Positions 2,738 to 56,425 of a stretch of 64,000 nt of DNA are shown one piece after another (positions within the stretch are counted from its first letter, which is position 1; every line of letters begins with the position of its first letter). Location of the stretch: assembly GCF_010645065.1 (NCBI RefSeq), contig NZ_JAADZW010000011.1, forward strand, positions 1-64,000. The letters are read 5' to 3'. Both the position numbers and the translations under genes were made by a program. The DNA is from Flavobacterium fluviatile (GTDB taxonomy: Bacteria > Bacteroidota > Bacteroidia > Flavobacteriales > Flavobacteriaceae). The notes beneath the pieces were generated by a model. It was not told the origin of the DNA and did no database searches. It saw nothing but the letters and a program-made list of their open reading frames with translations.

Positions 2738-3475
2738 TTATTCTTTTATTAATTTTCCAGAACCTGCATCTGTAGCGATGATATAGGTTCCTTTAGATAA
2801 ATCCGATACATTTAATGAACTAGTTGCTGCTGTTTCTTTTACTAGGGCACCTGACATACTTAAGACTTTATAAGTTTTAGTTTCTAAGTCAGCATTAAAA
2901 GTAACTACTTCAGTAGCTGGATTTGGGTAAAAAGCGACAGTGTTTCTGTTTGTTTTTTTTGTACTTAAAGTTTCCGTTACACCTACTACGTAATTTACAT
3001 AATTTTGATCGGTTGAAGGATTAGATCCAACAATTTGCAGAATATAATTATATCCTTGTACATAGCCAGGAGTTTCAGCTATAGGTAATGTGCCAGTAGG
3101 TAAACTGATAACAACAGTTGCGGCTCCATTGGTAAAGTCTGCTGCGGATAAAGTTTTTAAAACAGTTAAATTATCTGAACCCCAACCCAATGGTGCTATT
3201 CCGAAACCAGATCTAGAGAAATTTATATATATAGTATTACCAACTGAAGGATTAGTAGCGTCAAAATTAGTAATTTCAATAGTTATTGTTTTGGCAGTTG
3301 TATTATCAAAAGTATAGTTAGGAATTCCGCCCCAGGGATAACCAGCAAAGCTACCTGGCTTAGAAACATAGGTATTGCCTCCGTTCATTGTTGTAGAATA
3401 ATAAACTTGTGCAGTCAAATTTGTAGTGCTTATACTTAAGCCAAACATAATTAATAATAATGTAATTTTTTTCAT
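2738..3475 (-). CDS. T9SS-secreted protein of unknown function
   Basis: I do not recognise the N-terminal domain. The 245-residue protein has a clear signal peptide (MKKITLLLIMFGLSISTTNL, cleaved after TAQ). A beta-rich, aromatic- and Gly-rich region covers about 24-165. A type A T9SS sorting domain covers about 180-245, starting FYPNPATEVV and ending in the basic tail GSGKLIKE. It should therefore be exported through the outer membrane and attached or released. It sits between the GH86 enzyme and the GH16 lipoprotein, so a galactan-binding or accessory enzymatic role is plausible but inferred. No GH-type acidic motif is evident. Weak half-sites resembling the PUL operator lie upstream around 3582-3615. 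Confidence 0.75.
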   Translation of the reverse strand: MKKITLLLIMFGLSISTTNLTAQVYYSTTMNGGNTYVSKPGSFAGYPWGGIPNYTFDNTTAKTITIEITNFDATNPSVGNTIYINFSRSGFGIAPLGWGSDNLTVLKTLSAADFTNGAATVVISLPTGTLPIAETPGYVQGYNYILQIVGSNPSTDQNYVNYVVGVTETLSTKKTNRNTVAFYPNPATEVVTFNADLETKTYKVLSMSGALVKETAATSSLNVSDLSKGTYIIATDAGSGKLIKE

Positions 3476-3751
3476 GGTTTTTTTGTTTTAGTTGTTAATA
3501 TTTTGAGAAAAGCATGGCGTATATGCTTTTATTCTTTAGTAAGATTATTGTTTAAATTTTCTTTTAAGTAAATTTGTTACTCGACAAAAACTAGACTATA
3601 ATGAAAGTAAACTACTATTTATATAAACATTTCCCATGAATTATAAGTTTTTTTATTATACTCGTTAAACGCTTGAAAAAATCATGCAAATAGTTCTTAG
3701 TTAAGGGGAAGGGGATAACTAAATGGTTCTGGACAGAAAGTATTGAGTGTT

Positions 3752-5932
3752 TTACTTTTTAATAAACTTTGCTGCCCCTATTTTCTTGTTTTCTTTTAAA
3801 AAAACGATATAATAAATCCCTTCTGAAAGTGAACTCACATTAATTCTAGCACTACTAAGGATTTCTTTTTTTACTAATTTCCCAGCACCATCATATATCA
3901 TTGCAGTCGAGTTTGATTCGTTTGCATACGTATTTTTGATTGTTAGGGTGTCAATAACTGGATTAGGATAAATTGTTATTGTATTGTCGTTTTCGAAAGT
4001 TTTTGGATCTACTGATAACAGATTAGTACTAAAATTATATACTTGTAATGCTACTGAACTCACATGACCACCTGTGTCAGGTAATTGTACTGCTATTTGA
4101 TTATTTGCAGTAACAAGATTATAAGGCACTGGAATTTCTAGAACGCCAAAAAATCGATCTCTTTCTGCTTGGTCATAACCGCGGAAGTTAGTTGGCACAG
4201 GGATAATAGTATTGTTCACTTTGACAATCGGACTTAAAGATTGTCCATGATCTCTTCCTAAACCAATTCTTAATACGGCATCTCCATAAGTGCTTTTCTG
4301 AACGCCATTTACACTAAAATTAATAGGCTGATTTGCGCTAATAGGTTGCAAATAGGTCGTTGCAAAATATTTAGTTTCGTCGCAAGTTTCATTAATTGTT
4401 ATGGCATTGGCAAAGGTATACTCTAAAATAATAGTTGATTCGGCACCCAGTGTAACTGATGTTAGTGGTGATGGCACAGTACTTTCTTCTAGTGTAGCGA
4501 AGTTATTTATAAGAGTTAATTGTTTTTTGTTAATGCTTGTAATGGCAGTATTGTTGATGTTAAAAAGGTTTAAGTTTACTTTAGTTGCTTGGAAGTTTAA
4601 ATTGTTTAGAATCACATAAGCCTTATTACCATCGATATAGGTATTGGTTAAAACATCTAAATTATCCGTCTTACTATATACTCGTGTACCTTTAACATTT
4701 TTCCATAATTGATAAAATTTTACCAAGTCCGTATAAACCCATTGTCCGGTATAACTCGCTGGTTCATTTGCTTTTCGCATCAAACGATGAGAATATGGAA
4801 CTCCATTATACATTCCCCATTCCGCTTTGGTAACTACAAATGGAATAGCAAAATCAATAGTATTGGGTCTTTCAAGAAAAGCCATTAATTGGGAATTCAT
4901 GGCTTTTAAAATCAACCAATCTCTATAAGAACTCCATTGACTGTTATTGTAATCATGAGTTTGAGCTCCGTATTCTGAGATTACATAGGGTTTAGTAACA
5001 CCAAATTTCATTACGCTATACTGGTCCATCATATCAAAAGTAGCCTCAATATTGCTCCCGGAACGCAATTGTTTTTTTCCGTTATTGATCGATGAAAAAT
5101 CATAAAGGTGTAAAGACCAAAAATCCATTTTGCTTCCGGCAACGTCCATAAATAATTTATCGCGATTGTTCCAACGCTGAAAATTTCCTACTTCAAATTC
5201 AGGAAAAGCATTGGTGTAACCCCCGATTTTAGCGTTTGGGACCTGTACTCTAATGGCATCAGCAACACCATTATGAAAGTCGGCTATATCTTTTATCGAT
5301 TTAGTGTATTCTTTTAATCCTCCTAAAAGGTCATAATCAGGTTCGTTTATTACTTCAACATATGTAGGTTTCTTTTGGCCTGTAGTACCATCACCACTAA
5401 ATGCGTTGATGTAACGCCCCATATATTCACCCGTTGCAGTGGCATTGGCTAAATACCAGCCAGAATTAGTGGGTTGATGATCTGTTCCAGTCCAAAACGG
5501 ATGCAATTGAGCACATAAAACTAAACTCTTTCTATTTTCGTATTGATGAAGGTTGGTTTTTTGGGCATATTGACTTTTACTGTAATTTCCTAGAGAAGTG
5601 ATTTGAGTAGGATTCGCAAAACCAGGTCTGGCAGGATCTTGATTTAATTGATTTTTTAATACATAAGTAATTCCTCCTGTATCTCTTCCTAGGTACACAT
5701 CTAGGCCATTTAAAAATTCATTTCTTAAATCGGGCGAAACATTATCGCCATCCCATTCAGTTTCTGTTTGATTGGCATGCGTTGTTATGAATTTTGAACG
5801 ATCAAAAGTAGAGATGCCTCCTACGGAATGTTTCACGTTAAGTTTTAGATTTACATTTACTTGCGCATAAGTAGGAAAGGCACACGCTAGTAGTATGGCG
5901 TAACGAAACACTATTCGTTTGTTTCTTTTCAT
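3752..5932 (-). CDS. GH86 beta-agarase/beta-porphyranase with T9SS sorting domain
   Basis: This 726-residue endo-acting enzyme is predicted to cut agarose or porphyran outside the cell. A signal peptide (cleaved after TYAQ) precedes a TIM-barrel domain containing PTYVEVINEPDYD, with E197 as likely acid/base, and PYVISEYGAQTHDY, with E320 as likely nucleophile, the clan GH-A arrangement known for GH86. Beta-sandwich domains follow (about 430-640). A T9SS sorting domain (ITIYPNPVIDTL to AAKFIKK) ends the protein. It follows the surface glycan-binding lipoprotein gene by 118 bp and is probably co-transcribed with susCD. Porphyranase versus agarase specificity is not decidable from sequence reading; the P450 and sulfatase elsewhere in the locus favour a porphyran-like substrate. 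Confidence 0.85.
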   Translation of the reverse strand: MKRNKRIVFRYAILLACAFPTYAQVNVNLKLNVKHSVGGISTFDRSKFITTHANQTETEWDGDNVSPDLRNEFLNGLDVYLGRDTGGITYVLKNQLNQDPARPGFANPTQITSLGNYSKSQYAQKTNLHQYENRKSLVLCAQLHPFWTGTDHQPTNSGWYLANATATGEYMGRYINAFSGDGTTGQKKPTYVEVINEPDYDLLGGLKEYTKSIKDIADFHNGVADAIRVQVPNAKIGGYTNAFPEFEVGNFQRWNNRDKLFMDVAGSKMDFWSLHLYDFSSINNGKKQLRSGSNIEATFDMMDQYSVMKFGVTKPYVISEYGAQTHDYNNSQWSSYRDWLILKAMNSQLMAFLERPNTIDFAIPFVVTKAEWGMYNGVPYSHRLMRKANEPASYTGQWVYTDLVKFYQLWKNVKGTRVYSKTDNLDVLTNTYIDGNKAYVILNNLNFQATKVNLNLFNINNTAITSINKKQLTLINNFATLEESTVPSPLTSVTLGAESTIILEYTFANAITINETCDETKYFATTYLQPISANQPINFSVNGVQKSTYGDAVLRIGLGRDHGQSLSPIVKVNNTIIPVPTNFRGYDQAERDRFFGVLEIPVPYNLVTANNQIAVQLPDTGGHVSSVALQVYNFSTNLLSVDPKTFENDNTITIYPNPVIDTLTIKNTYANESNSTAMIYDGAGKLVKKEILSSARINVSSLSEGIYYIVFLKENKKIGAAKFIKK

Positions 5933-6050
5933 GGTATTTTGAGAGTATAAAAATAGCTTGTATTAGAAAGTCTGTTTGAAAGCAAGGGCAGTAAATAGGT
6001 AAATTATTTACTGCCCCTTGCACTTATTTGTTTAAAATTATCATTACTAG

Positions 6051-7631
6051 TTACGGTCTTAATTTAGCTTCACTAACAGTAATGTCATCGATATAGAATT
6101 TTAAAGCAGAGGAGTTACCTTGGTTGTCACTTCTAAGCATAAAACTATAATCAGCAGTTGTATTGATTTTTACTAGTGCAGAACTGTAAACCCATTTTCC
6201 AACTGCAAAATCTGCTGAGAATCCAGGGTTTGGACCTATTCCCCAGTCTGTATTTGGAGTAAAGTATAATCTTAAATCAGGAACAGAGGCTTTGTCACCT
6301 AAGCTTTCTACATAAACCCATGATCCCATAGAATAGGTTTTGCCAGCAGTAAGTCTAAAAGTTCCTTTATCGCCACCATGATTATAACCTAAAATCATAC
6401 CGCCACGAGCATCTATTTGAACGGACAAGCTTTTTTTGCCGCCATGTGCTTTTGTACTTGTAACCGCCGATGTAAATTTGTTCCACGGAGCTCCCCAGCC
6501 AAGATATACCCAGTCAGCACTAGTTGAAGTTTCAAAACCATAATCAAAAGTAGTTGAAGCTAAAATATTAACGGATTTGAAAGATACAGCAACATCTGTA
6601 AATGAACTAGCAAAAACAGCATCTGCAGTGGTTAACGATCCTTTTGTGTATGATACAGTAATAATATCGTCGTTGTACAAGGTTTGCCCAGCTAATTTTA
6701 AAAGAACAATATTACCTTCAGTTGGGCTTATTGTCGCACTAGAAATAGTTACAGGTAGCGTAGCACCAGATTTGTTTTTTAATGTAACAGAAAAATCAGA
6801 TGCTTTTAATGTTTCAGCATTCATTTCTCTACTGTAATTCAGAGCTATATTTCCTTGATCGTCTATTACTTGAGCGTCATCCATGGTAACTGGGTCAGTC
6901 GATGGAATTACGTTGATAAAATCTTTAAGCATTACTGTTGCTTCACCAAATGGGCGAGGGGTATTGGCTTTGATAGTAAATCCAAATGTTCCTAGTTTTT
7001 TATATCTTACATCTACTGTTTTAGTATCAGTTGTTGATGTCGCAGGATCTCCTCCGTCGATAGTCCAAAGATAGGCTTCTGGTTCCCCTTCAGTAATCAA
7101 AGTATATCTAATCGTTCTTCCTGCTAGTACTTCATTTTTTGCACCATTAACTACATTTAGTTCTGCTCCTAAAGTACCGTCTGTATTTAAATAATTTGCT
7201 TTAACAACAATGCTTATTGGAGCTAAAACGGTTACTACTATCGTAGTATCTAATACTTTGGCAACAGGATTTGTGCTTCCTGTAGTATAAGCTTCTCCTT
7301 TAAAAACTTGATGTAATTTTACTTCATGTTTTCCAACAACGTTAAATATAGCTTTAACATTCTGTTCCGTTGAAGTAACGTCATTGTCAGAATCTACAAT
7401 GTCAACAACGCCTTCTGGAAAAGTCCAAAGTCTTGACTCAACCCCCGCTGAAATATCTCCAAAGGTTTCGTGGCTACCTACCCTAATTTTATTTCCATAG
7501 TCCATTTGTGAACTAACAATAATTCTGCTGTTGGCCTCATTCAAATCGATAGAATCATAAATGTCACTACATGAATATAACCCTATTGCAACAAGAAATA
7601 GTGCAATTACTATTTTAAGTTTTGTTTTCAT
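6051..7631 (-). CDS. PKD- and CBM-like surface glycan-binding lipoprotein
   Basis: This 526-residue lipoprotein (lipobox ending at C21) occupies the position after SusD where PULs encode a SusE/F-like or other surface glycan-binding protein. Residues 30-125 and 130-245 are beta-rich, the second with a PKD-like pattern (EAYLWTIDGG...FTIKAN). Residues about 250-355 resemble a Big/SwmB-like domain (LNYSREMNAETLKASDF). The C-terminal 160 residues resemble a CBM4/9/22-type galactose-binding fold (FDYGFETS...WVYLGWG...FYIDDITVSE). It should bind galactan at the outer membrane and hand it to SusCD. Only 19 bp separate it from susD, supporting one operon. No catalytic motif is evident. Confidence 0.75.
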   Translation of the reverse strand: MKTKLKIVIALFLVAIGLYSCSDIYDSIDLNEANSRIIVSSQMDYGNKIRVGSHETFGDISAGVESRLWTFPEGVVDIVDSDNDVTSTEQNVKAIFNVVGKHEVKLHQVFKGEAYTTGSTNPVAKVLDTTIVVTVLAPISIVVKANYLNTDGTLGAELNVVNGAKNEVLAGRTIRYTLITEGEPEAYLWTIDGGDPATSTTDTKTVDVRYKKLGTFGFTIKANTPRPFGEATVMLKDFINVIPSTDPVTMDDAQVIDDQGNIALNYSREMNAETLKASDFSVTLKNKSGATLPVTISSATISPTEGNIVLLKLAGQTLYNDDIITVSYTKGSLTTADAVFASSFTDVAVSFKSVNILASTTFDYGFETSTSADWVYLGWGAPWNKFTSAVTSTKAHGGKKSLSVQIDARGGMILGYNHGGDKGTFRLTAGKTYSMGSWVYVESLGDKASVPDLRLYFTPNTDWGIGPNPGFSADFAVGKWVYSSALVKINTTADYSFMLRSDNQGNSSALKFYIDDITVSEAKLRP

Positions 7632-7650
7632 AATTTAAGTGGTATTGAAA

Positions 7651-9381
7651 TTAGTTGTTTAATTGACTATTTGTTTGTCTCTCAACCGATGGTATAGGGA
7701 AATAATCATTTTTAGCTGGAGTATAAGTTACAGCAGCATTCTTGAAATCATCCCTGATTCTTTCTATAATATACAATGGTGCTTTGTTAGCTATAGTTGT
7801 AAAATTTTTCACTCTCCAATTTTCATCTGCAAGTAATTCAGTGAAAACAGATTTTGCAATTCCCCATCGTACTAAGTCTTTCCATCTATGACCTTCAAAA
7901 GCCAATTCAAGCGGTCTTTCTACTCTATGAATATGTGTTAAAACATTTTCTTTTGTAGGAGGTACTAAAGGTTGATTACCATGTACTTCTTTGCTTATAT
8001 GTAATTGTGGAAACGTATTACTATTTGTTGCTAAATATTGTTTTAATGTAATTACACCCGCACGAGTTCTAACAAAATCAATATACTTAATAGCTTCATT
8101 TACATCGCCAGTGCTGTTAAGAATTGCTTCAGCATACATTAAATAAACATCTGCCAACCTAATTTGCCTGCAGTTAATTCCGCTTCTAGAGTTTCCGTCC
8201 TCGTTAGCCAAATGATACCAGTTAGTATATTTCTTAACATAGGCACTTTGACCATAACCCCAACCTTTTAATTCAGCTACATTTCTTAAATAATATTGTC
8301 CTTCAAGATTTTTTGGGGCAATAGTAGCAGTAAGACGTTTAGACTGTAAATTAGTAGTGTTTATTGGATTTGTGACATCTACCGCATCATTAGTGTATAA
8401 TTCGTGTAAGAAATAAGATGGCAATATCGTATTAAATCCACCATAATTTAATTGCGCTAGCCCTACAGCTAAATTTGAAGCTTCTGCTCCAGCTGCATAA
8501 GGTGTGTCGTCAACATTACTTCCGTTAGCACCTGGATTTTCAGTTGCACTATAGGCAACTTCAAGAATTGACTCACTATTAAATTCGTGCTCTTCATCAA
8601 AATTATCCATGATATTCGCAGTCAGGCTATAAACACCTGAATCAATTACACTTTTAAATTCAGTCGCAGCTGGTCCCCATTGTTTGTCAAATAAATATAC
8701 TTTTCCAAGTATAGAAGTAGCGGTACCCCAAGTAACTCTACCTAAGTCTTTACCAGACCATGTTTCTGGCAGATTGGCTTTAGCAAATTCCAAATCAGGA
8801 ATGATAATTTGGCTATTAACCTCTGCGATTGAGCTAAATTTCACATTAAAATCTGCTTTTGTTTGCGGAACTTCTGTATGAATAACAGCTCCTCCATAAG
8901 TATTAGCTACTAAGAAATAGAAGAAAGCTCTTAAGGTACGGGCTTGGCCTTCAATACTTTCTTTTTCACCGGCAGCAAAAATACTTGGGTCAGCAGATTG
9001 AATTTTTTCTATTACTTGATTGGCTCTAAATATTCCAGTGTACAAATTTGCCCATTTGTTAGTAACCGCTTCACTGGCATCGTTAAAAGTGAAATTTCTG
9101 TAAGCATAGGGTCTGTACCAAGATTCAGTACCCCCTAAGTCTGCCATAATTTCATCTTCAATTAGGCCATTACCGCTTATTGATTGAAATTGTAAAGCCC
9201 CATAAACTGTAGTTAAGGCTGACTGAAAATCTTTTGTAGTTTTCCAAAAAGTTTGATTTGTAATTGTATTTGGATTTACCTGAGTCAAAAAATCCTCATC
9301 ATTACAACCTGAAGTAAGTAAAACAGTGCATATCGCTAATGATGCTAGTTTTACTTTTATATTTATTTTTCTATGTATCAT
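7651..9381 (-). CDS. susD: SusD/RagB family nutrient-binding lipoprotein
   Basis: This 576-residue outer-membrane lipoprotein (lipobox TSGC, C26) shows the SusD pattern: an N-terminal FLTQVNPNTITNQTFWKT start, helical TPR-like pairs, the YLMYAEAILN motif and the C-terminal RVERPLELAFEGHRWKDLVRW block. SusD proteins lid the partner SusC barrel and capture oligosaccharides. It is 20 bp downstream of the SusC gene. The pair together with GH16/GH86 enzymes defines this as an agar/porphyran PUL importer; the actual ligand is inferred. Confidence 0.95.
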   Translation of the reverse strand: MIHRKINIKVKLASLAICTVLLTSGCNDEDFLTQVNPNTITNQTFWKTTKDFQSALTTVYGALQFQSISGNGLIEDEIMADLGGTESWYRPYAYRNFTFNDASEAVTNKWANLYTGIFRANQVIEKIQSADPSIFAAGEKESIEGQARTLRAFFYFLVANTYGGAVIHTEVPQTKADFNVKFSSIAEVNSQIIIPDLEFAKANLPETWSGKDLGRVTWGTATSILGKVYLFDKQWGPAATEFKSVIDSGVYSLTANIMDNFDEEHEFNSESILEVAYSATENPGANGSNVDDTPYAAGAEASNLAVGLAQLNYGGFNTILPSYFLHELYTNDAVDVTNPINTTNLQSKRLTATIAPKNLEGQYYLRNVAELKGWGYGQSAYVKKYTNWYHLANEDGNSRSGINCRQIRLADVYLMYAEAILNSTGDVNEAIKYIDFVRTRAGVITLKQYLATNSNTFPQLHISKEVHGNQPLVPPTKENVLTHIHRVERPLELAFEGHRWKDLVRWGIAKSVFTELLADENWRVKNFTTIANKAPLYIIERIRDDFKNAAVTYTPAKNDYFPIPSVERQTNSQLNN

Positions 9382-9401
9382 TTTAATTTAATTTTAAGTT
9401 G

Positions 9402-12400
9402 TTAAAATTTAACCTGTAAACCAAGCACAAATCTTCTCGAAACAGGATAACTACCGCTATCTACACCACGTGTACTGATTCCATTTCCACCAACTTCAGG
9501 ATCGTAACCAGTATATTTTGTAAAAGTGAAAGGGTTCATACCTGTAACATACAATCTTATTTTACTTATTCCGTACTGAGTCATAAGCAATTCAGGTAAT
9601 GAATAACCTAAAGTTAAATTACGAATTCTGAAGTAGGTACCATCTTCTAACCAATAATCAGAACTTGCTCTAACGTTATTGTGATAAGCATTTCCTCTGT
9701 CTGAAGGCACATCAGAAGTAGGGTTCTCAGGAGACCACATAGAATATTGGTCTAAATGTCTTCCTTGTGTGTATGCAAAATATCTTGAACCATTGAATAA
9801 TTTAGCTCCGTAAGAAAAATAAGTCTGAATTCCAAAATCGAAACTTTTGTACGTTAGATCTAAATTCAACCCTGATTCAAATTTTGCCTGACCAGAACCC
9901 GCATATACACGGTCATCGTCAGTGATTTTATTGTCACCATTTTGATCAATGTAGCGCATATCACCCAAAATTGCACTTGGTTCTATTTTTTTGTACTCAA
10001 GTAAAGTTGCGTCGTCTTTTATAACACCTGCATTTTCTAGTAAAAAGTAAGCGCCAGCTTCATGACCTACAGCAAAGAATGTAGTAAAATCTACAGCATT
10101 CCCTAATGAATTGGTAGGACGTCCGTTACCATAACCTCTTTCAATGCCATCAAGGTTAGTTATTTCATTTACGTTTTTAGTAAAAGTTCCAGAAATATTA
10201 TATTTGAGACCATTTCCCATTTGGTTTTTATAGCTCATTGCTAGCTCAATACCTTTGTTAGTCATATTTCCAGCATTGACAATGATTGGGCTATACACAT
10301 CGACTGCGTTGGGATTGTACGTACCACCAGACGCAGGAGTTTGCTGAGGCAATAACATATCTTTTTTGTCATTCTTGTAGATATCAGCAGTAAAAGTTAA
10401 CTTGTTTTGAAACATAGCTAAATCCAATCCAATATTATTTGAAATACTTGTTTCCCATTTTACATCTGGATTAGAGAAACGTCTTTGTATAGCTCCATTT
10501 GCTAATGACTGATCTGAACCAAATAAGTAATTTACACCTGACTCAATTTGACCCGCATACGTATATGGAGGGATACTTTGGTTACCTAACTGAGCATAAC
10601 TTGCCCTTAATTTTAAGCTGTTTACTACTTTGTTGATAGCACCATCCTTGAAAAATTTTTCTTCAGATATATTCCAACCAGCAGAAACACCCGGGAAAGT
10701 ACCGTACCTGTTATCAGGTCCAAAGTTTGAGGAACCATCTCGTCTAATACTAGCTGATATTAAATAACGATCATTGTAGTTATATTGTACTCTACCTAAT
10801 AAACCACTAATGCTATTTGTGTAATCATAACTTGTTGGTTTTGTTCCTGCCTGACCTGAACCTAAAGAAGGCGTTTCATTGCTTAATAAACCAATTACAC
10901 CTACACCAACTTGTTTCGAATTGTATTCTTCGCGTGAAGCTACTCCAGTAAAGTTGAAAGAATGTTTACCTAAATTTAATTTATAATCCAGGATGTTTTC
11001 TATAGTAGATCTGTCTGTAAAAGTGTAATCTTCGTTCAATAATGCATCCGCTCTTGAGGCAGTTGCATTATATGAGCCATCAAGACCATATACCAATACT
11101 TGTGGACGGAAAAAAGACCTTCTATAATCCCAATTACTTTTACCTATATTTAATTTATAGGTTAAGTTTTTTACTATTTCATATTGTAAATTAACGGCAA
11201 TATTGCTTGATGTAACTTTTCTTTTGTCAACATTTTGTAATTCTCTTGCCAAATAGCCATAATAAATAGCATTTTCTACAGGATAATCAACACTAGACCC
11301 GGATCCCTGTACATCGCTTAATGGAATTTGCCATGGTCTTTGTCCAATAGCATATTCATATAAAGACCATGGTTCTTGCGTTCTATTTTCTACAGTCATC
11401 CCCATACTTACAAACGCTTTGAATTTACCTTTTGTAAATTGACCATTAATGCGGTTACTTAATCTATCAAAATCAGAGTTAATTAAAATTCCTTCTTGGT
11501 TATAATAATTTGAATTAAAATTCAATGTTAAATCCTGTGTTCCACCAGAAACACCTAGTCCGTAATTAGTAATTAAAGCATTGTTGTTTTGTACGTCGCC
11601 AACGTAGTCACTATCATAGTCTAAAAGTTCTGGTGTTGTAATAAAAAAAGTTGGTAACTGGCTAGACAACATTGCCTTTGTTGTATAATCCTCAAACAAT
11701 TGCTGCTGAGTGTTCATTAAAGGTGTACCTGAAGTAATATTTTGGATACCCGAATAAGCATTGAAATCTATACTAATTTTTCCCTTTTTACCTCTTTTAG
11801 TAGTAATCAAGATAACACCATTTGAGGCCCTAGTACCATAAACGGAGGCAGCAGCACCATCTTTTAATACGTCTAATGATTCAATTTGATCAGGTGAGAT
11901 ATTTGGGTTGCTTTGATAAGGAATTCCATCCACTACATACAATGGTTCTAATGAACCTGTCAATGAACCAACTCCTCTAATTTGGATATTAGTTGCTTCA
12001 CCAGGACGCCCACTAGCAGCCTGAACGTTAACCCCAGCAATTTGGCCTTGTAATGATTCTCCAACATCTGCTACTGGAGCTTTCGCAATAAGGTCTGCCT
12101 TTACGGTAGCAACAGCACCTGTAACCTCTTTTTTCTTTTGAGTTCCATAACCTACGACCACAACTTCATTTAAAATTTGCGTATCAGGCTGCATCTGAAT
12201 GTCTAACTTTTTAGTAGTGCCAACAGTTCTTGTGAGTGTTCTGTATCCCATAAATGAGAAAACTAAGGTTTGTTTTTCACTCACCTCCATTTCATAGCTT
12301 CCATCCATATCTGTAGAGGTACTAGTTGTAGATCCCTGGATTTTAATTGTTACCCCTGGTATTGGTAGCCCACTTTCATCTTTTACTTTTCCAGTAAGTT

Positions 12401-12491
12401 TGTTTTGTGCACTCACATCGAATGCACAAAGAAACAAGAGAAAAAACATTATAAGGAATGTCTTTTTCCAAAAGTTATACTCTTTTTTCAT
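9402..12491 (-). CDS. susC: SusC/RagA family TonB-dependent outer-membrane transporter
   Basis: This 1029-residue protein has a signal peptide ending near DVSAQ, then a CarboxypepD_reg-like domain (LTGKVKDESGLPIPGVTIKI, about 31-105). The SusC-type junction LNEVVVVGYGTQKKKEVTGA, the plug (about 115-230) and a 22-stranded beta-barrel ending in RFVLGLQVKF follow. It should import galactan oligosaccharides with TonB-ExbBD energy, with SusD as lid. It is the first gene of the minus-strand series. Four half-sites of the putative PUL operator lie 140-220 bp upstream, so induction with the GH2-GH117 and agarase units is likely. Confidence 0.96.
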   Translation of the reverse strand: MKKEYNFWKKTFLIMFFLLFLCAFDVSAQNKLTGKVKDESGLPIPGVTIKIQGSTTSTSTDMDGSYEMEVSEKQTLVFSFMGYRTLTRTVGTTKKLDIQMQPDTQILNEVVVVGYGTQKKKEVTGAVATVKADLIAKAPVADVGESLQGQIAGVNVQAASGRPGEATNIQIRGVGSLTGSLEPLYVVDGIPYQSNPNISPDQIESLDVLKDGAAASVYGTRASNGVILITTKRGKKGKISIDFNAYSGIQNITSGTPLMNTQQQLFEDYTTKAMLSSQLPTFFITTPELLDYDSDYVGDVQNNNALITNYGLGVSGGTQDLTLNFNSNYYNQEGILINSDFDRLSNRINGQFTKGKFKAFVSMGMTVENRTQEPWSLYEYAIGQRPWQIPLSDVQGSGSSVDYPVENAIYYGYLARELQNVDKRKVTSSNIAVNLQYEIVKNLTYKLNIGKSNWDYRRSFFRPQVLVYGLDGSYNATASRADALLNEDYTFTDRSTIENILDYKLNLGKHSFNFTGVASREEYNSKQVGVGVIGLLSNETPSLGSGQAGTKPTSYDYTNSISGLLGRVQYNYNDRYLISASIRRDGSSNFGPDNRYGTFPGVSAGWNISEEKFFKDGAINKVVNSLKLRASYAQLGNQSIPPYTYAGQIESGVNYLFGSDQSLANGAIQRRFSNPDVKWETSISNNIGLDLAMFQNKLTFTADIYKNDKKDMLLPQQTPASGGTYNPNAVDVYSPIIVNAGNMTNKGIELAMSYKNQMGNGLKYNISGTFTKNVNEITNLDGIERGYGNGRPTNSLGNAVDFTTFFAVGHEAGAYFLLENAGVIKDDATLLEYKKIEPSAILGDMRYIDQNGDNKITDDDRVYAGSGQAKFESGLNLDLTYKSFDFGIQTYFSYGAKLFNGSRYFAYTQGRHLDQYSMWSPENPTSDVPSDRGNAYHNNVRASSDYWLEDGTYFRIRNLTLGYSLPELLMTQYGISKIRLYVTGMNPFTFTKYTGYDPEVGGNGISTRGVDSGSYPVSRRFVLGLQVKF

Positions 12492-12630
12492 AAAGTTTTG
12501 GTAGTTAAATTAATTGACGGTTAGTTTTTTTTTTTTTTTGATAATGAAATTTTAGTCCGGATTTTTTATTGATTTCGTATTTTATCGATTGCTAAATTAC
12601 TTAAATGACATTATCAATGGTTTTTTTTAA

Positions 12631-12708
12631 ACTAGATATAAACTGAACAGACATGCATTTTTTTTAGTAAAATAAGGCGTTTAACAACTGAACTAACTAA
12701 ACTAGACA
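12631..12708 (-). promoter_or_regulatory. Putative PUL operator upstream of susC
   Basis: On the minus strand, TGTTCAGTTTATATCTAGT (12649-12631) begins two 11-bp direct repeats of the form TnTnnAGTTTA. Two more half-sites, TGTCTAGTTTA (12708-12698) and AGTTCAGTTGT (12694-12684), lie just upstream. The same 19-mer occurs before both agarase copies and, with one change, before GH2-GH117. The rest of the 578-bp gap (12492-13069) is AT-rich with a run of T at 12527-12539 and no credible gene. I saw no clear TAnnTTTG promoter element. Confidence 0.6.
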
Positions 12709-13069
12709 CAACTATATCTTGACAAAACTCAATTTTTGATAAAATACTGCTTATATAGTACTATTTTGTCTGGATTTTTTCAGTTAAAGAATAACTAAAA
12801 ATAAACTCGTAAAATTAAATTTGGTTTTTATATAAATATTTGATGAATTCAGGTTAATTTTTAGAATTGAGGTTGTTTTATAGTTATTAGTATTAAGTTT
12901 ATATGCGTTTTGCAGTTGATTTTGGATTTTATTTTTATGCCAAGATTCTGCGTTAGATTATTTCCTCATATAGTTGACGCACATTAAAAAGATTTTAATT
13001 GCTAAAAGGTAAAAAGACAGTATATATCAGTTTAATTTGGATTATTTGTCTCCTATTGTGTAGTATGGA

Positions 13070-14752
13070 TTAAAGTGAAGCAATAAAATCGGCTAAATTT
13101 TCATTTCTATCCAGCTTAAACTTTTTGCGTAAACGGTATCTTGAGGTGTGTACGCTTTCGAAAGAGATACCTAATAGAGAGGACATATCCTTGCTGGAAA
13201 AATTAAGCTTTACCAAAGCACATATTTTGAGATCAGTTTGCCCCAGATCTGGATATTTCTCTTTAAGGTTTTTATAAAAACTTTGGTTCACGGCAGTAAA
13301 TCGGGCTTCGAATTCTTTCCAGTTACTTGCAGAAGAACCTTGAATAGTTTTTAGCATATTGTTTATAGAGGTGCTGTCAATATTCTCTTTGTTTTCGGTA
13401 ATGCTTTTCTTTAGTTTTTCTATAAATTCCTCTTTTTCAATTAGCTGTAAGGCAGATGACGTGAGTTCCTTATTTTTTAATTCTAAAATCTCACTATTTT
13501 TTATCAGCTCTAACTCCTGTTTTTTTGCTAATAATTCTTTTTCGGCAAGATGCTTTCTGCGAATGTTTTTAAACAGCTGATGCCCGTAGATTATTAAAAA
13601 TAGAATTACAATTATCATGATTGTCGATTTGAGAAACCAAATATTTTCTTCGCTTTCCAGTTCTTTTATATGCTGTTCTTTTAATAGTTCTTTTTCCTTT
13701 TGCTTTTGAATGCGGTATTTGTCATTTATTTCAAATAAGTGCTGATTGTTCTTGCTTTTTCGGCCAAATATTTTATTATTCAATGTCATAGCTTCATTTG
13801 CATGAAAATAAGCAAGTTTGTACTTGTTGCTTTTAGAGTAAACTGTGGCCAGAGCAGTATGATCCATTAATTTATAATTCGCATGGCTTTTGTATATTTT
13901 GGATAAGGCTAATGATTTTTCTAAATAAATTTCGCTCTGAGTATAATCTCCTTTCATTTTATATACATTTCCTAATAAAGAATTGATAATAATAAGGTAG
14001 GATTTGTCGTTTTTTTCAAAATAATTTTTTGCCTCTAGTAATTTTGAAATAGCGGCATCAAACTTTTTATCAGTAGCGGCAAGAAAACCAGCTTCGGCCT
14101 CGATATAGCCATTGTTGGCTTTGTTTTTTGTTTTTTGTTTGGAGATATAGCAGCTATCAAGGTAAATTTTGGCCATTTTGTAATTCCCATTTACACGATA
14201 AAAATTTACTAATGCAAAATAATCGCTCACAATGTATCCGTTATCCATTTCATTTGCAGCAACGAGTTTTTCTTTTAATTTATGAGAAAGGGTAAAATAT
14301 TTTAAGGCTTCATCATCCCGTTGGTAAAAACTATAAAGCCAGCCCAAAGCATGGTATATAGTGGCTTTGGAGAAATCGTCTTTAGATTGGTCAGCAAGTA
14401 ATAATGCTTTCCAGTACAAATCGTAGGAATTTCCATAATCGACACTATGTCCGTATAAATCGGCAAGTTCGCTTATGCTGTGTATTAAGTTGAAAGTGTC
14501 TTTTTCTATCTTATATTTTTCAATACTTTTTTTGTAATAATAAATGGCTTTTTTCGAGTCAATATATTTTATGGCTTTGGCTTTTCGGAGGTACTCATTT
14601 TCTTTATATGTTTTCTGGGCGGTTGTCGAAAATGAAAAAAAGAGTACAATAAGTAGAGTAAAATACTTTTTTAAATTCAAAGAATGAATGAATTCAAATT
14701 TCTTTGGTTTTTTTCTTTTTACGGGTGCTTGTCGGTTAAATAGGAATTTCAT
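13070..14752 (-). CDS. TPR-containing transmembrane LuxR-type transcriptional regulator
   Basis: This 560-residue protein is probably the local PUL regulator. A basic N-terminus precedes a signal/anchor segment (KKYFTLLIVLFFSFSTTAQ). About ten TPR-like helical pairs occupy roughly 50-350 in the periplasm. One transmembrane helix (STIMIIVILFLIIYG, near 375-393) leads into a charged coiled coil (about 395-470) and a C-terminal LuxR-like helix-turn-helix (LGQTDLKICALVKLNFSSKD then SLLGISFESVHTSRYRLRKK). This layout would couple a periplasmic signal to cytoplasmic DNA binding without a phosphorelay. It is neither a hybrid two-component system nor a SusR. It lies between two of the putative operator clusters. 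Confidence 0.8.
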   Translation of the reverse strand: MKFLFNRQAPVKRKKPKKFEFIHSLNLKKYFTLLIVLFFSFSTTAQKTYKENEYLRKAKAIKYIDSKKAIYYYKKSIEKYKIEKDTFNLIHSISELADLYGHSVDYGNSYDLYWKALLLADQSKDDFSKATIYHALGWLYSFYQRDDEALKYFTLSHKLKEKLVAANEMDNGYIVSDYFALVNFYRVNGNYKMAKIYLDSCYISKQKTKNKANNGYIEAEAGFLAATDKKFDAAISKLLEAKNYFEKNDKSYLIIINSLLGNVYKMKGDYTQSEIYLEKSLALSKIYKSHANYKLMDHTALATVYSKSNKYKLAYFHANEAMTLNNKIFGRKSKNNQHLFEINDKYRIQKQKEKELLKEQHIKELESEENIWFLKSTIMIIVILFLIIYGHQLFKNIRRKHLAEKELLAKKQELELIKNSEILELKNKELTSSALQLIEKEEFIEKLKKSITENKENIDSTSINNMLKTIQGSSASNWKEFEARFTAVNQSFYKNLKEKYPDLGQTDLKICALVKLNFSSKDMSSLLGISFESVHTSRYRLRKKFKLDRNENLADFIASL

Positions 14753-14843
14753 AAATCTTGATGATTAAATTTAAATGAAAAAAATGTAAGTTAATGGGGT
14801 TTGCTTATAGTATTGTACTTAATAACAAGTGCAATATAAAAAT

Positions 14844-14907
14844 TGTCTAGTTTATTTTGTGTGCAATACCTCTCGATTTTAGCAATGTTCAGTTTATGTC
14901 TAGTTGC
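14844..14907 (+). promoter_or_regulatory. Putative PUL operator upstream of GH2-GH117
   Basis: The plus strand carries TGTCTAGTTTA (14844-14854), TGTTCAGTTTA (14886-14896) and TGTCTAGTTGC (14897-14907). The last two form a near-exact copy (18/19) of the 19-mer found before susC and the agarases. Spacings of 42 and 11 bp place the half-sites on one face of the helix. The 491-bp gap 14753-15243 separates the divergent regulator and GH2 genes; beyond these sites I find only AT-rich leader sequence. Confidence 0.6.
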
Positions 14908-15243
14908 TTATATGTTACTATATCTCTTATTATCACCATATTTGCTAATGTTGTTTATTCATAAAAAATAAAAGGTTTTTATATGTATTGTGCTATTTAA
15001 ATCTATTTAAATTATGATATATATAATTTTATATTAAAAGACAAATTTGTTGCGAAATGAATTTGTGAAATAAATATACTAACGATCATTGTTGCTTAAT
15101 GTAATCCGATACTTAATTTTTTATTTGGATTGTCTATTTGATTATTCTGTCATGTTCAGAATAAAAGAATAATGAAACTCAATAAAAAAACACAAATAGT
15201 TAAAAGAGAAACAATCTCTTTATAGTTAATTAAAAAAAATAGA

Positions 15244-17787
15244 GTGAAAAAGAATTTAAAAAAGAAGAGGTATAATGTACTGAAAAAGATTTCTTACGGA
15301 AGTATATTGTGTATGGCTTTATATGGTTGTACAGCTTCAAAAACAGACGGGACTAGTTCTGATTTTAATTTTGACTGGAGGTTTAAATTCGAAAGAGCAG
15401 AACAGGCGGGTGTGAATAACTGGGAAGAAATTAATTTACCGCATGATTGGAGTGCCACTTTTAGTTTTGACTCTATTAAAGGAGAAGGAGCTACTGGATA
15501 TAAAGTAGGTGGAATTGGTTTGTATGAAAAAGATTTTTCACTAGGTAAAGAATCCAATACCTTACATTATATTCTTTTTGATGGAATTTATAATAACAGC
15601 GAAGTTTGGTTAAATGATCAAAAGCTGGGTGAGCATCCTTATGGATATTCTCCATTTTATTATGACATCACTCCTTATATAGGTGATAATAAAAATACGG
15701 TGAAAGTAAAGGTAGATCATTCAAGATACGCTGACAGCCGCTGGTATACAGGTTCGGGAATTTATAGAAATGTAAAATTAATTGCCAAAAACAAATTGCA
15801 CGTTCCTATTTGGGGTACTTATATCACAACTCCTGCAGTTACAAAAGAAAAAAGTGAAGTAAATGTAGAAGTTAAAGTAAAGAATGCTTTTGATACGACT
15901 CAGGATTTTGAAGTAGTTGCCGAAATTCTAGACGCTACTAATAAGAAGGTAGCAGAAGAAACGACGAAACTTAGCTTGAATGCAGGAAAAGAAAAAGAAC
16001 TAGCGCTAAGAACAACTATTGCAAATCCTGCTTTATGGGATGTGAATTCTCCCAACCTTTATCATGCAAAAATCACGATTCGACAAAATGGACGATCGGT
16101 TGATGAAACGATTACGACTTTTGGTGTGCGTACTATAAAGTTTGATGTTAACAATGGTTTTTATTTGAATGGCAAAAACATGAAAATAAAAGGAGTGTGT
16201 TTGCATCATGATGGAGGATTGGTTGGTGCTGCTGTGCCTAAGGATGTTTGGAGAAGACGTTTTGTGAAGTTGAAAGAAGCAGGAGTAAACGCGATTCGTA
16301 TTTCTCATAATCCAGGATCGGCAGAATTTATCGATTTGTGTGACGAGATGGGATTTCTGGTTCAAGATGAGTTTTTTGACGAATGGGATAATCCAAAAGA
16401 CAAACGCTTGAATATGAAAGAGAAGTCGGTAGATTACATTACACGTGGTTATGGCGAACATTTTCAGGACTGGGCAGAACGTGATTTAAAAAACACGATG
16501 TTACGCGACCGAAATCATGCTTCAATTTTTCAGTGGAGCATTGGTAACGAAATAGAGTGGACATATCAAAGATCAGTTGATGCAACGGGTTTCTTTAATA
16601 TGAATTGGGATGGTAATTATTTCTGGTCTATTCCACCTATTGGTCCAGAAGAAATTAAGAGAAGGTATGAAACCAGTCCAAAAGAAAAATACAATATTGG
16701 TGAAACAGCTCATAAATTGGCAAAATGGACGAGAGAAATGGATACAACCCGATATGTTATTGCAAATTCCATATTGCCATCGGTTAGTCATATAAACGGT
16801 TTTGGAGATGCAGTAGATATTTTGGGCTACAGTTACCGTCGCGTAATGTATGACTACGGACATAAAAACTATCCAAATAAAATTATAATGGGTACTGAGA
16901 ATTTGGTACAATGGCATGAATGGAAAGCCATATTGGATCGTCCGTTTGTATCTGGAACTTTTTTATGGACTGGAATTGACTATTTGGGAGAATCTAACAA
17001 AAGATGGCCAAAAAAAGGAACTGACAGCGGTATGCTTGATTTTGCGGGATTTGAAAAGCCTTCTTACCACATGATGAAGTCGCTATGGAATGATGCACCT
17101 GAATTATACATTGCTACCCAAACAGAAGAAAAATCAAATTATAAAGTTGATGAAAAAACAGGGCAGCCTGTTGAAAAGAAAAAAGGTGCCTGGGAAACAG
17201 CGCTATGGGTTTGGCAAGATGTAAATGAACATTGGGAGTATGCAAACGGTACTAGAACAATAGTAGAAATTTATTCCAATTGTGATGAAGTAGAATTGTT
17301 TTTGAATGAAGTGTCTCTTGGGAAGAAAAAATTGGCAGATTTTGAAGATCATATTTACAAGTGGTCTGTTCCGTATCAGAAAGGTACACTTTACGCTAAA
17401 GGCACTCATAAAGGAAAAACTGTTGAAACGAAATTAATAACGCCTTCAAAACCCCATGCTATTAAGTTGACAACGGATAGAACATTGATAAATGCAGACG
17501 GTTATCAAGTGGCTCACATTGTAGCTCAAGTTGTTGATGCTGATGGTAATCCAATAAAAACCTTTAATCCTGAGATTAGCTTTACGGTTGAAGGAAAAGC
17601 TAAAGTTCTAGGGATTGATAATGGTGCAGTTGGAAATGTACAGGATTTTCAGTCTAATAAAATTATCATGAGTCAAGGAAGATGCCTATTTATTATACAA
17701 TCCAAAAAAGACCAAACTTCAAATATTATTATAAAAGCAAAAACAAGTAATCTAGAAAGCAATACAATAAAAATTACTCAAAAATAA
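15244..17787 (+). CDS. GH2 beta-galactosidase-like lipoprotein
   Basis: This 847-residue protein likely removes beta-galactose from the non-reducing end of agaro/porphyran oligosaccharides in the periplasm. The start is a GTG; the next in-frame ATG falls inside the signal peptide, so the GTG is preferred. The lipobox ends at C29. The sugar-binding domain (about 40-185), Ig-like domain (about 190-290) and TIM barrel follow. [10 protein letters not shown] gives acid/base E436 and [10 protein letters not shown] gives nucleophile E552. The C-terminal beta domains (from about 620) include an invasin/Big-like section. GH117 follows after 23 bp, a pairing consistent with alternate removal of Gal and anhydro-Gal. 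Confidence 0.88.
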
Positions 17788-17810
17788 ACTAATTAAAAAA
17801 AACGATACCT

Positions 17811-19061
17811 ATGAATACTATAACAAGAACAGTAATGATGGGCATGCTCTATTTAGGGATGACATTTACATCAGCTACAGCTCAGTCTAAAAAAGAGGAG
17901 AAAGAGCTTAGAGCATTAGCAATCAAATATCAGGATAAATATGGTATTAAAGATGTTGATCATTTAAGTGCGGCAACTAAAAGAGCCTTAAAATGGGATC
18001 AAAATTTAGGAAATGAATGGTTTATTGAATTTGGAGAACCACAACCGCTAAAAGGTGATTTGGCTTATGAAGAGGGAGTAGTGCGTCGTGATCCAAGTGG
18101 TATTATCCAGGAAAACGGCAAGTATTATGTATGGTATTCTAAAAGCACCGGACCTACTGAAGGTTTTGGTGGGGATATGGAAAATAAAAAAGTATTTCCG
18201 TGGGATCGATGTGATATTTGGTACGCTACATCTACAGATGGTTGGACTTGGAAAGAAGAAGGGAAAGCTATTGCTAGAGGAAAAAAAGGATCGTATGATG
18301 ATCGTTCCGTTTTTACAGTTGAGATCATGAAATGGGAAGGTAAATATTACCTATGTTACCAAACTGTCGAAGGAATATACAATGTACGTGTAAAAGAAAA
18401 AGTGGGAATGGCTTGGTCTACATCGCCAGATGGACCTTGGACAAAGTTGGATGCGCCAGTGTTGGCTCCAGCTGAAAATGGTATATGGAAAGGTACGGAA
18501 GACAACCGTTTTCTGGTAGAGAAAAAAGGGGATTTTGATAGTCATAAAACACACGACCCTTGTATTTTGCCTTATAAAGGAAAATTTTATTTGTATTACA
18601 AAGGGGAACAAATGGGAGAAGAAATGACTTTTGGAGGTCGTCAAATTCGTCATGGGGTTGCTATAGCAGATAATCCACTGGGACCTTATGTAAAATCACC
18701 TTACAACCCAATCAGTAATAGTGGTCACGAAATATGTGTTTGGCCTTATAACGGTGGAATCGCTTCATTGATTACTACTGATGGTCCAGAGAAAAACACG
18801 ATTCAATGGTCACCTGACGGAATCAATTTTGAAATCAAAGCTTCTATAAAAGATGCGCCACACGCCATCGGTTTAAACAGAACGGCTGATAATGAAAAAG
18901 AACCTACGGAAGTTTTGCGTTGGGGATTAACACATAAATACAACAACTGGAATTACCAAAGTATCATGCGTTTTTCATCAGAAAGAAAAACAACTCACGT
19001 GGCTCCTGGCGAAAGCTCCGTGAATGGAAAAGAGGAAAAGGCTGAAAACATGCACAAATAA
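17811..19061 (+). CDS. GH117 alpha-1,3-(3,6-anhydro)-L-galactosidase (neoagaro-oligosaccharide hydrolase)
   Basis: This 416-residue enzyme releases 3,6-anhydro-L-galactose from the non-reducing end of neoagaro-oligosaccharides. The signal peptide is cleaved near ATAQ. The N-terminal helical segment (about 25-75) is the swapped region of the family dimer. The five-bladed propeller shows the family residues: D94 (RRDPSG), D249 (THDPC), H306 and E307 ([10 protein letters not shown]). Their spacing matches characterised GH117 proteins. It is co-directional with GH2 and followed by a strong terminator, so GH2-GH117 forms one unit. It feeds the L-AHG catabolic genes downstream. Confidence 0.93.
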
Positions 19062-19081: not shown

Positions 19082-19134
19082 AAATTCCCTTTTTAATTCT
19101 TTTATAAAGAAGATTAAAAAGGGAATTCTTTTTT
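19082..19134 (+). terminator. Intrinsic terminator after GH117
   Basis: A long stem formed by AATTCCCTTTTTAATTCTT and its near-complement, with a short loop around 19101-19108, is followed by a run of T. It closes the GH2-GH117 unit before the iclR-type gene. Confidence 0.85.
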
Positions 19135-19234: not shown

Positions 19235-20026
19235 ATGATTTCAGAAAAAGAAGATTTAAAATCGAACTATAATGTTCCTAATTTAGAACGCGGCTTGTTG
19301 ATCATAGAGTTGTTAGCAGTGCATCCAAAAGGCCTTACGTTGGCAGAAATCATTCAATCTTTGGATATTACAAAATCGAGTGCTTTTCGAATTACCAATA
19401 CTTTAATATTTAAGAACTATCTCCAAAAAAACGAAACAACCAAAAAGATTTCGCTTTCTAGAAAAATGCTAACTTTAGGTATTTCTTCCATGAATGAGCA
19501 AAGTATTGTGGAGTTGTCTATAGACATAATGAGAGCTTTACGAGATGAATTGAAAGAATCTGTGATGTTAGGTGTTGTTTTAGGACAACGTGGTACCATC
19601 TTAGAGCAAGTATCTTCATCCTATCCTGTAAAGTTGTTTGTGGAGCAGGGTACACAATTTTATTTGCACAGTTCGGTAGGCGGAAAATCTATTTTGTCTT
19701 TTATGCCTGAAGAAGAATCCTTAGCACTAATAAATTCTTTAGACTTTAAAAAATTCACCAACAATACAATTATTGATAAGGAGCGTTTTACAAAGCAGCT
19801 AGAGGAAGTGCGTAAATTAGGGTATGCCATAGATAATGGGGAGGATATTCAGGGAATCCATTGTATTGGTGCGCCCATCTTCAATGAATCTGGTTATCCT
19901 GTTGCCGCACTTTGGATCACTGCTCCACACGGTCGACTGCCTCACGAAGATTTTGAAGCAAAGGGTAAAATTGTTGCGAATTATGCTTTAGAAATTTCGT
20001 TAAAACTGGGATATGTCGGCAGATGA
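19235..20026 (+). CDS. IclR family transcriptional regulator
   Basis: This 263-residue protein has the IclR winged helix at about 15-80 (LERGLLIIELLAVHPKGLTL...KSSAFRITNTL). The ligand-binding domain at about 95-260 includes HSSVGGKSILSFMPEEE and GYAIDNGEDIQGIHCIGAPI. It is flanked by terminators on both sides and so is probably transcribed alone. It precedes the L-AHG pathway operon, whose leader carries palindromic sites, so regulation of that operon by a pathway intermediate is the likely role. The effector is unknown. Confidence 0.92.
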   Translation: MISEKEDLKSNYNVPNLERGLLIIELLAVHPKGLTLAEIIQSLDITKSSAFRITNTLIFKNYLQKNETTKKISLSRKMLTLGISSMNEQSIVELSIDIMRALRDELKESVMLGVVLGQRGTILEQVSSSYPVKLFVEQGTQFYLHSSVGGKSILSFMPEEESLALINSLDFKKFTNNTIIDKERFTKQLEEVRKLGYAIDNGEDIQGIHCIGAPIFNESGYPVAALWITAPHGRLPHEDFEAKGKIVANYALEISLKLGYVGR

Positions 20027-20114: not shown

Positions 20115-20209
20115 TTTCATATACGAAAAAAAATAATAGTCAAATGGATTTTTATTCATTCGAATTATTATATTTGTTTCAAATAAGAAACAAGTTTATT
20201 ATTTGAAAC
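20115..20209 (+). promoter_or_regulatory. Leader of the L-AHG operon with palindromic operators
   Basis: Two symmetric elements precede the dehydrogenase gene. TTTCATATACGAAA at 20115-20128 is nearly palindromic. GTTTCAAATAA (20176-20186) is the exact inverted repeat of TTATTTGAAAC (20199-20209). TATATTTG at 20169-20176 fits the Bacteroidota -7 element TAnnTTTG, though I could not see a convincing -33 element. The arrangement suits an IclR-type repressor; which element binds it is inference. Confidence 0.5.
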
Positions 20210-20222
20210 TAAAAACATAAAA

Positions 20223-33717: not shown

Positions 33718-33837
33718 TTAAGACTAACAAACGATTTTCACTTTATAATATTATGAATAGAAAATTGCTTCAAAAAAAGATGCAATCTAAAAGGAGCACT
33801 TCAGATTGAATTTAAAACTAAATATAGTTGAAAAAAC

Positions 33838-33893
33838 AAAAACGCTTACAGAGGAACTTTAAAATCCTACTATAAGCGTTTTTTTTATAAGCT
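33838..33893. terminator. Bidirectional terminator between converging genes
   Basis: ACGCTTA...AGGA pairs with TCCT...TAAGCGT, flanked by A-runs on the left and eight T on the right. It lies between the GH2 gene (plus) and the lipoprotein gene (minus). Confidence 0.8.
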
Positions 33894-39247: not shown

Positions 39248-39264
39248 TTAAAAAAATAAAGAAA

Positions 39265-39573: not shown

Positions 39574-39587
39574 TTAAAAAATGTTGT

Positions 39588-41610: not shown

Positions 41611-41617
41611 ATTTATA

Positions 41618-42640: not shown

Positions 42641-42657
42641 TTTAATTTATAGTTTAA

Positions 42658-43917: not shown

Positions 43918-43964
43918 TTATATTTTTAGGATAATTGTGTTTTTTAATCTAGTTGTTAAATGAT

Positions 43965-46166: not shown

Positions 46167-46167
46167 T

Positions 46168-48911: not shown

Positions 48912-48982
48912 GCGAATTAAACAACTTGAAAAGATTATTTTACAAATGAAAATGATTAATAGGTTATAAAAGTACAATAATT

Positions 48983-56356: not shown

Positions 56357-56425
56357 CTAATGCTCAAGATTTCAAATGTTGTATTTTTTTCGAGAAAAGT
56401 AAATTTAGTTTGAAATTTTTGAGCT

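Follow-up and report, generated by a model that had tools for sequence, protein, structure and literature searches.

The closest described systems are the SusR-like regulators of Bacteroides (SusR BT3705 and SusR2-4), which the accessible part of PMC3878776 portrays as membrane one-component regulators of polysaccharide utilisation loci (PULs), with a periplasmic sensor, one transmembrane segment and a C-terminal helix-turn-helix (HTH) unlike known DNA-binding domains. Their predicted sites are direct repeats several helical turns apart, with monomers on one face of the DNA, and consist of two boxes separated by 67 or 77 bp. Here we describe a candidate operator made of a contiguous 11-bp pair, and its likely regulator, a protein with tetratricopeptide repeats (TPR) and a C-terminal HTH domain, in the agar/porphyran PUL of Flavobacterium fluviatile. 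The PUL lies in the first 64,000 nucleotides of contig NZ_JAADZW010000011.1 (the window), one of 115 contigs of a draft genome of 5,113,333 bp (GCF_010645065.1). The regulator and its clade are set apart from SusR by their agar substrate, the two being compared by a description of their layout. The two boxes 67 or 77 bp apart were not found here; the unit is an 11-bp tandem, with further sites 31-32, 41-43 and 62-64 bp away.

Other known regulators share some of these features. Hybrid two-component systems (HTCS), according to the same part of PMC3878776, are PUL activators of Bacteroidota with direct-repeat operators, as here, but they use an AraC HTH and an average spacing of 21 bp, whereas Pfam (E<=0.001) detects neither a kinase nor a receiver nor an AraC domain in the window protein. 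DosR, VpsT, LiaR and NarL share the LuxR/NarL domain fold, matched by model comparison with Z up to 8.0, although here this type of domain sits on a predicted TPR membrane sensor and not on a receiver or autoinducer domain. CgrA, an AraC-type positive regulator of the Zobellia carrageenan PUL that was tested by deletion, likewise acts on a PUL for a red-algal galactan but belongs to another family, and a mutant lacking it matched the wild type in growth on agar (PMC5698469, as far as the text was accessible). Agar, and less so porphyran, induces a Z. galactanivorans cluster with ahgA (GH117), a tandem of TonB-dependent receptor and surface glycan-binding protein, and two regulators (PMC5613140, in the part available, where the words "binding site" are absent). 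Agar loci are well studied enzymatically, and the literature searched, which excluded subscription papers and supplements, assigns no operator to agar PULs or to this HTH family.

Operator sites in the window and the genome

The 19-mer TGTTCAGTTTATATCTAGT occurs exactly before susC (12631-12649, minus strand) and before both agarase copies (47497-47515 and 57755-57773, minus strand), and with one change, as TGTTCAGTTTATGTCTAGT, before GH2-GH117 (14886-14904, plus strand); 100 shuffles give none. The preliminary description had listed these four sites and proposed that each is a head-to-tail 11-bp repeat, and the repeat is real: the susC operator consists of the half-sites TGTTCAGT and TATCTAGT, 11 bp apart. 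The count of four needs qualifying. Both agarase operators lie inside a 1361-bp duplication (46167-47527 and 56425-57785, 98.7% identical), which ends 12 bp upstream of the operator, so that the pair is one site by descent and only three of the 19-mer sites are independent. An IS1595-type transposase is encoded beside agarase copy 2 (57889-58812). A fifth, weaker operator that had not been listed before, AGTCTAGTTTTTGTCGAGT, was found at 3579-3597 (minus strand).

The half-site itself had been given as TnTnnAGTTTA. Its core, TGTYNAGT followed by three A/T-rich bases, is kept in relatives; at the agarase and GH2 sites the second repeat lacks the trailing TTTA. Extra half-sites are present with the expected sequences upstream of the susC operator (12684-12708, minus strand; TGTCTAGT from 12708 and AGTTCAGT from 12694) and of the GH2 operator (TGTCTAGT at 14844-14851, plus strand). 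They had been described as in phase with the helix, which holds for the GH2 half-site (42 bp, 4 turns) but not for those of susC (59 and 45 bp, 5.6 and 4.3 turns).

Within the genome the operator is confined to this PUL. The 19-mer with up to 3 mismatches has one further place in the whole genome (reversed pattern, 2 places), and all five places matching the refined motif TGTYNAGTTNWTRTCNAGT with 0-1 mismatch fall in the PUL, with no scatter through unrelated genes. The 20 additional places with 2 mismatches were considered as such scatter and rejected; they look like chance, because the reversed control has 42 in all. Across 199 genomes of the genus, this one included, the 19-mer with up to 2 mismatches matches in 15, as does the reversed pattern. 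These 15 comprise the source genome, 13 genomes with one or two 2-mismatch places, and one (G182) that has the same four operator sites with the same local spacings as the window.

The TPR-HTH protein and its pairing with the operator

The proposed regulator (560 aa; 13070-14752, minus strand) combines TPR, transmembrane, coiled-coil and LuxR-type HTH parts. The N-terminus is hydrophobic, and a single strongly hydrophobic segment follows at 371-389. In the structure model (mean pLDDT 82), helices form a TPR-like array, residues 337-453 a single helix, and the C-terminus a small helical domain. Only TPR families matched in Pfam (E<=0.001), the GerE profile gave no match, and NCBIfam returned only a weak match to BT3442_fam; among the control genomes, a search with that family matched Bacteroides ihuae and Methanosarcina acetivorans, and no SusR emerged. 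Modelled alone (pLDDT 81), the C-terminal domain resembles LuxR/NarL DNA-binding domains, which hold the leading Foldseek and VIA rows (best Z 8.0 over 63 residues, rmsd 2.2); Foldseek gave no hit under E 0.001, and Z values up to 8 can reflect a common arrangement. By these models the fold is LuxR/NarL-like, and the protein would consist of a periplasmic sensor and a cytoplasmic DNA-binding domain.

The operator accompanies this protein in relatives. The 78 loci from named genomes, the best of 224 relatives, include one, Flavobacterium potami 17A (L058), whose regulator is 100% identical to that of the window and which was excluded from the flank count. In the 500-bp flanks of the regulator gene, the window consensus with up to 4 mismatches has 82 matches in 61 of the remaining 77 loci, against 2 for the reversed pattern and 1 to 8 for eight scrambled patterns; in the remainder of the loci it has 67, against 11 to 47 for the controls. 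The flank matches give TGT(T/C)CAGTTTTTGTCTAGT, with TGTYNAGT half-sites starting 11 bp apart, and the core TGTYNAGT-N3-TGTYNAGT is a direct repeat and no palindrome. With a weight matrix built from these 82 matches, and thus trained on the loci scanned, a threshold of 10 bits yields 117 near sites and 127 far ones; reversed sequence yields 1 and 26, respectively. At 12 bits or more, 197 of 208 sites are non-coding, though the loci are 88% coding, and an intergenic site of this strength is present in 70 of 78 loci. Genes within 450 bp behind the sites encode SusC (49), GH2 (38), GH117 (19), agarase (5), GH86 (4) and others; 45 sites lead to genes without a window homologue, such as those for a glyoxalase-like or a PSCyt/PSD1 protein. 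Some genomes carry two clade regulators with overlapping operator motifs (L064/L097, L079/L108, L085/L093 and L083/L099).

Four regulators are encoded in the window: besides the TPR-HTH protein, these are of IclR type (19235-20026), cupin-AraC type (34964-35842) and LacI type (47886-48977). One of the latter three might bind the 19-mer while the TPR protein is merely nearby, above all the cupin-AraC protein, since AraC-type HTCS regulators have direct-repeat sites (PMC3878776, part available). We consider this improbable. IclR, AraC and LacI homologues (at least 30% identity) occur in only 11, 7 and 1 of the 78 loci, which span up to 10 kb on each side so that more distant copies would be missed, whereas the operator occurs in 70 of 78 and adjoins the TPR gene in 61 of 77. 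In addition, the motif is a direct repeat and not a palindrome, and the HTCS repeats described there are 21 bp apart on average.

Pairing of operator and regulator was also assessed in a sample of 397 family genomes. The regulator is found in 29 of these at E<=1e-40, and their loci (L029-L057) contain a matrix match of at least 10 bits in 26 of 29 cases against 4 of 29 in the reversed control, the matrix being partly trained on these sequences; L054, L055 and L056 have none. Two genomes with matches only 33% identical (G270, G445) were set aside, leaving 27 with a clade regulator. All 27 are among the 34 genomes that carry GH117 (E<=1e-100). The exact operator pattern occurs in 20 of these 27, but in none of the seven GH117-positive genomes without the regulator (Fisher p = 0.0006); it occurs in 6 of 363 other genomes, and the reversed pattern in 7 of 397. 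When 17 operator loci in regulator-positive genomes were checked, some of them near the regulator, 13 held a homologue of a window gene, for example GH86, GH16, GH2 or SusC, while among six operator loci in regulator-negative genomes only L246 did, its homologue being a distant TPR-HTH gene. In Z. russellii (L082), 6 places match its own operator variant with 0-1 mismatch, and 5 of these share a 14.1-kb stretch of one contig; allowing up to 2 mismatches gives 15 places for the motif and 6 for the control. The genes behind these operators include SusC and a GH117 that matches PDB 3p2n at E 4e-230. The window GH117 is likewise close to 3p2n, a 3,6-anhydro-alpha-L-galactosidase, which we take to be the Zobellia enzyme.

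Several isolated sites were seen in genomes without the agar regulator. L245 and L246 (genomes G392 and G559) have operator-like sites before a gene for a large protein, that of L246 directly 3' of a different TPR-HTH gene. An exact 19-mer in G258, where neither regulator nor GH117 was found, lies inside a long open frame (L243) and was therefore taken as chance.

Co-occurrence alone cannot name the binding protein, and an unlinked or as yet unnamed DNA-binding factor co-inherited with agar PULs could bind the site instead. Such a factor is very unlikely, given that the exact pattern is missing from all 7 genomes that carry GH117 but no TPR regulator and present in 20 of the 27 that have the regulator, and that in the wider family the half-sites beside a regulator gene covary with that regulator's own recognition helix (see below). 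The TPR-HTH protein had been put forward as the common regulator, and that proposal gains support from the co-occurrence across genera, the absence of the pattern from all seven GH117-only genomes, the helix covariation and the LuxR/NarL-like fold. On this comparative evidence, the TPR-HTH protein most probably binds the operator as a membrane one-component activator of the agar genes.

Promoter geometry, mode of action and surrounding genes

Operators are oriented with respect to the regulator gene and to the promoters behind them. Of the 107 sites no more than 600 bp from the regulator, 104 point away from it (70 upstream and all 34 downstream), and the 3 that point towards it are upstream. 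In 54 of the 197 intergenic sites A..TTTG follows the operator at offset 32, while other offsets average 0.59. When only the 157 non-redundant sites (<70% alike over 100 nt) are considered, 95 match TAnnTTTG in 5 or 6 of its 6 positions somewhere between offsets 27 and 37, with 80 of these boxes at 31-32, compared with 13-25% in shifted controls; no -33 element is kept behind the sites. In the window, such -7-like boxes were found before susC (TAATTTAG, 12592-12599, minus strand, 31 nt behind the operator, 5/6 positions) and GH2 (CATATTTG, 14937-14944, plus strand, 32 nt, 5/6). Those of agarase 1 (47458-47465, minus strand, 31 nt) and agarase 2 (57716-57723, minus strand) are both TAAATTGC and match 4/6 positions, as does that of the fifth site, TAATCTTA, 31 nt behind its operator. 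With the -7 box at -12 to -5, as given for F. psychrophilum in the accessible part of PMC9723704, the operator is predicted to cover about -62 to -44 from the start. The agarase box fits TAnnTTGY better than TAnnTTTG; the former is known in F. psychrophilum as SM5 and assigned there to an alternative sigma factor (PMC9723704, same part).

The fixed distance to the -7 box, the position outside the core promoter and the missing -33 element fit an activator. Alternatively, the TPR-HTH protein could bind the operator as a repressor that agar oligosaccharides release, and the sites upstream of the regulator gene could repress that gene. Repression is unlikely, however, as the operator stops about 44 bp short of the expected start and as SusR, a membrane regulator whose layout the TPR-HTH protein is predicted to share, is an activator (PMC3878776, part available). 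The same geometry bears on whether the 19-mer has any regulatory function, or is merely a remnant of a duplication or mobile element: the agarase pair did duplicate, and the IS1595-type transposase stands beside copy 2. This is scarcely credible, because the 157 dissimilar intergenic sites in relatives nevertheless keep the core and its distance to the -7 box, and strong sites are almost all non-coding (197/208).

Additional operators on the same strand follow a helical spacing. In 45 of 57 pairs they lie 31-32, 41-43 or 62-64 bp away, about 3, 4 or 6 turns; since relatives share spacings, these are not 45 events. The vector strength is 0.86 for a 10.5-bp period and 0.69-0.79 for nearby periods, so 10.5 is favoured and the others are not excluded. 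Distances from operator to start codon vary: in other genera they are ~240-390 bp before GH2/GH117 and ~60-70 bp in Aquimarina. The putative GH2 leader in the window (14945-15243) contains no long open frame.

Activation with the TPR-HTH protein as activator, including physical binding, membrane topology and ligand, is inferred to proceed as follows. The TPR part would sense an agar-derived oligosaccharide in the periplasm, and one transmembrane helix and the coiled coil would lead to the cytoplasmic LuxR-type HTH domain. Two such domains may occupy TGTYNAGT half-sites 11 bp apart in head-to-tail orientation, the operator covering roughly -62 to -44. The promoters concerned have a -7 box but no conserved -33, and at some of them sites ~3, 4 or 6 turns away may add to binding. 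The regulator would thereby recruit RNA polymerase to the genes for uptake (susCD), endo-agarases (GH16 and GH86) and oligosaccharide cleavage (GH2 and GH117). The operator, its confinement to the PUL in its own genome, its pairing with the regulator clade, its direction, the promoter geometry and the covariation of helix and half-site in the wider HTH family are computed directly.

Several observations weigh against this activator. Homologous loci are not independent observations, and any parallel between the Z. galactanivorans and Z. russellii clusters presupposes that they are orthologous. Seven of the 27 regulator-positive genomes have no exact pattern, though the loci of six show variant or weak matches, and in 8 of 78 loci no intergenic site reaches 12 bits (L107, L110, L112, L118, L119, L121, L122 and L124; L122 has a strong site inside an open frame). 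The agarase -7 boxes reach only 4/6 positions, like that of the fifth site. A distance of 340 bp separates the GH2 operator from the annotated start codon, so that a leader of ~300 nt has to be postulated. Finally, paralogues with overlapping motifs (e.g. L079 and L108) leave target selectivity between them unexplained.

The genes behind the window operators form two probable target operons, susC-susD-PKD protein-GH86 (3752-12491, minus strand; gaps 20, 19 and 118 bp) and agarase-FG-GAP protein-GH16-PfkB kinase-aldolase (40945-47418, minus strand; gaps -59, 47, 17 and -35 bp). The GH2-GH117 target unit (15244-19061, plus strand; gap 23 bp) and agarase copy 2 (56426-57676, minus strand) complete the set, and a 245-aa protein with a T9SS sorting tail (2738-3475, minus strand) is a possible target. 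The window encodes two GH16 beta-agarases (checked for copy 1), dehydrogenases and a mandelate-racemase-like enzyme. A cytochrome P450 adjoins a ferredoxin-reductase-like flavoprotein (38096-40835); such pairs are known to demethylate 6-O-methyl-galactose of porphyran. Strong intergenic hairpins at 19083-19127, 20173-20213 and 33834-33886 (z -3.6 to -4.7) are probable terminators. The first, a self-match on the plus strand 3' of GH117 (-19.5 kcal/mol, z -3.6, then a U run), stands between GH2-GH117 and the IclR gene. A 299-bp direct repeat (819-1117 and 1342-1640, 99% identity) lies in and beside a gene with a bacterial Ig domain.

Eleven-bp repeats in the wider HTH family

When 296 Bacteroidota genomes were searched with a profile of the regulator, HTH homologues turned up in 102. 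Six distant ones were scanned, of which four carry TPR and two (~950 aa) propeller/Y_Y_Y sensors; one of the six (L293) passes the GerE Pfam cut-off (24.8 against 23.5 bits), L184, L272, L278 and L295 match weakly and L178 not at all. The agar half-site was considered for the distant homologues and rejected, as the agar matrix reaches 10 bits in 2 of 25 distant loci (L177-L201) against 3 of 25 in the reversed control. Other half-sites were therefore sought.

Direct repeats at a spacing of 11 bp are present in 29 of 65 distant loci, while any other spacing reaches at most 10. Tandems starting with TGT occur at 11 bp in 25 of these 65, at other spacings in at most 4, and in at most 2 in 100 dinucleotide shuffles. 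In a held-out set of 40 loci fetched afterwards, 20 have the spacing of 11 and the next best has 7 (sums of two size classes). TGT at the start of both half-sites was rejected as a universal criterion, since it falls from 25/65 to 5/40 in the held-out loci. Taking all 105 loci together, 49 have an 11-bp tandem, the next best spacing being 21 (16 loci), and 56 have no such tandem; among 42 unrelated loci (20 from the F. fluviatile genome itself, 15 from the genus and 7 GH117 loci without regulator, with about a third as much non-coding DNA) the count at spacing 11 is 0. The 32-nt distance to A..TTTG occurs in 2 of 27 distant TGT-type sites; that geometry is seen only in the agar clade.

Half-sites in distant loci differ from one another, and the differences track the recognition helix. 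A first test with 21 hand-picked rows, which omitted the near-duplicates L178, L182, L187, L192, L262 and L269 as well as L181, L276 and L280, gave r=0.64 between helix and half-site similarity. Repeated automatically with all 49 tandem loci, it gave r=0.55 (0.65 for the first 29 and 0.41 for the 20 held-out), and 0 of 5000 permutations were as high in each set; kinship is ignored in all of these values. Helix FESVHTSRYR goes with TGTYNAGT, PDSVKTARYR with TGTTNACC, PKSVDQGRYR with TGTAGAGA, VRSVEVKRYR with TGTTGTGG and VRGVEISRYR with TGATGTAG. Among held-out loci with identical helices, half-sites match in L307, L317 and L322 and nearly in L309, while the expectation from the helix failed in L308, L313, L314, L328, L329 and L340, where similarity is at or near baseline.

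These results suggest a phylum-wide code, which we regard as likely: Bacteroidota membrane one-component regulators with this HTH, whether the sensor is TPR or beta-propeller, would bind 11-bp head-to-tail repeats near their own gene, with a half-site readable from the recognition helix. This is more interesting than the link between the agar operator and its regulator, and less certain. For agar utilisation, the analysis offers a testable operator, a likely regulator and a promoter geometry across many Flavobacteriaceae and several distant Bacteroidota genera. If the wider code is true, it would provide swappable parts for glycan-inducible expression, the regulons of uncharacterised PUL regulators would be predictable from sequence, and sensors could be linked to unlinked targets.

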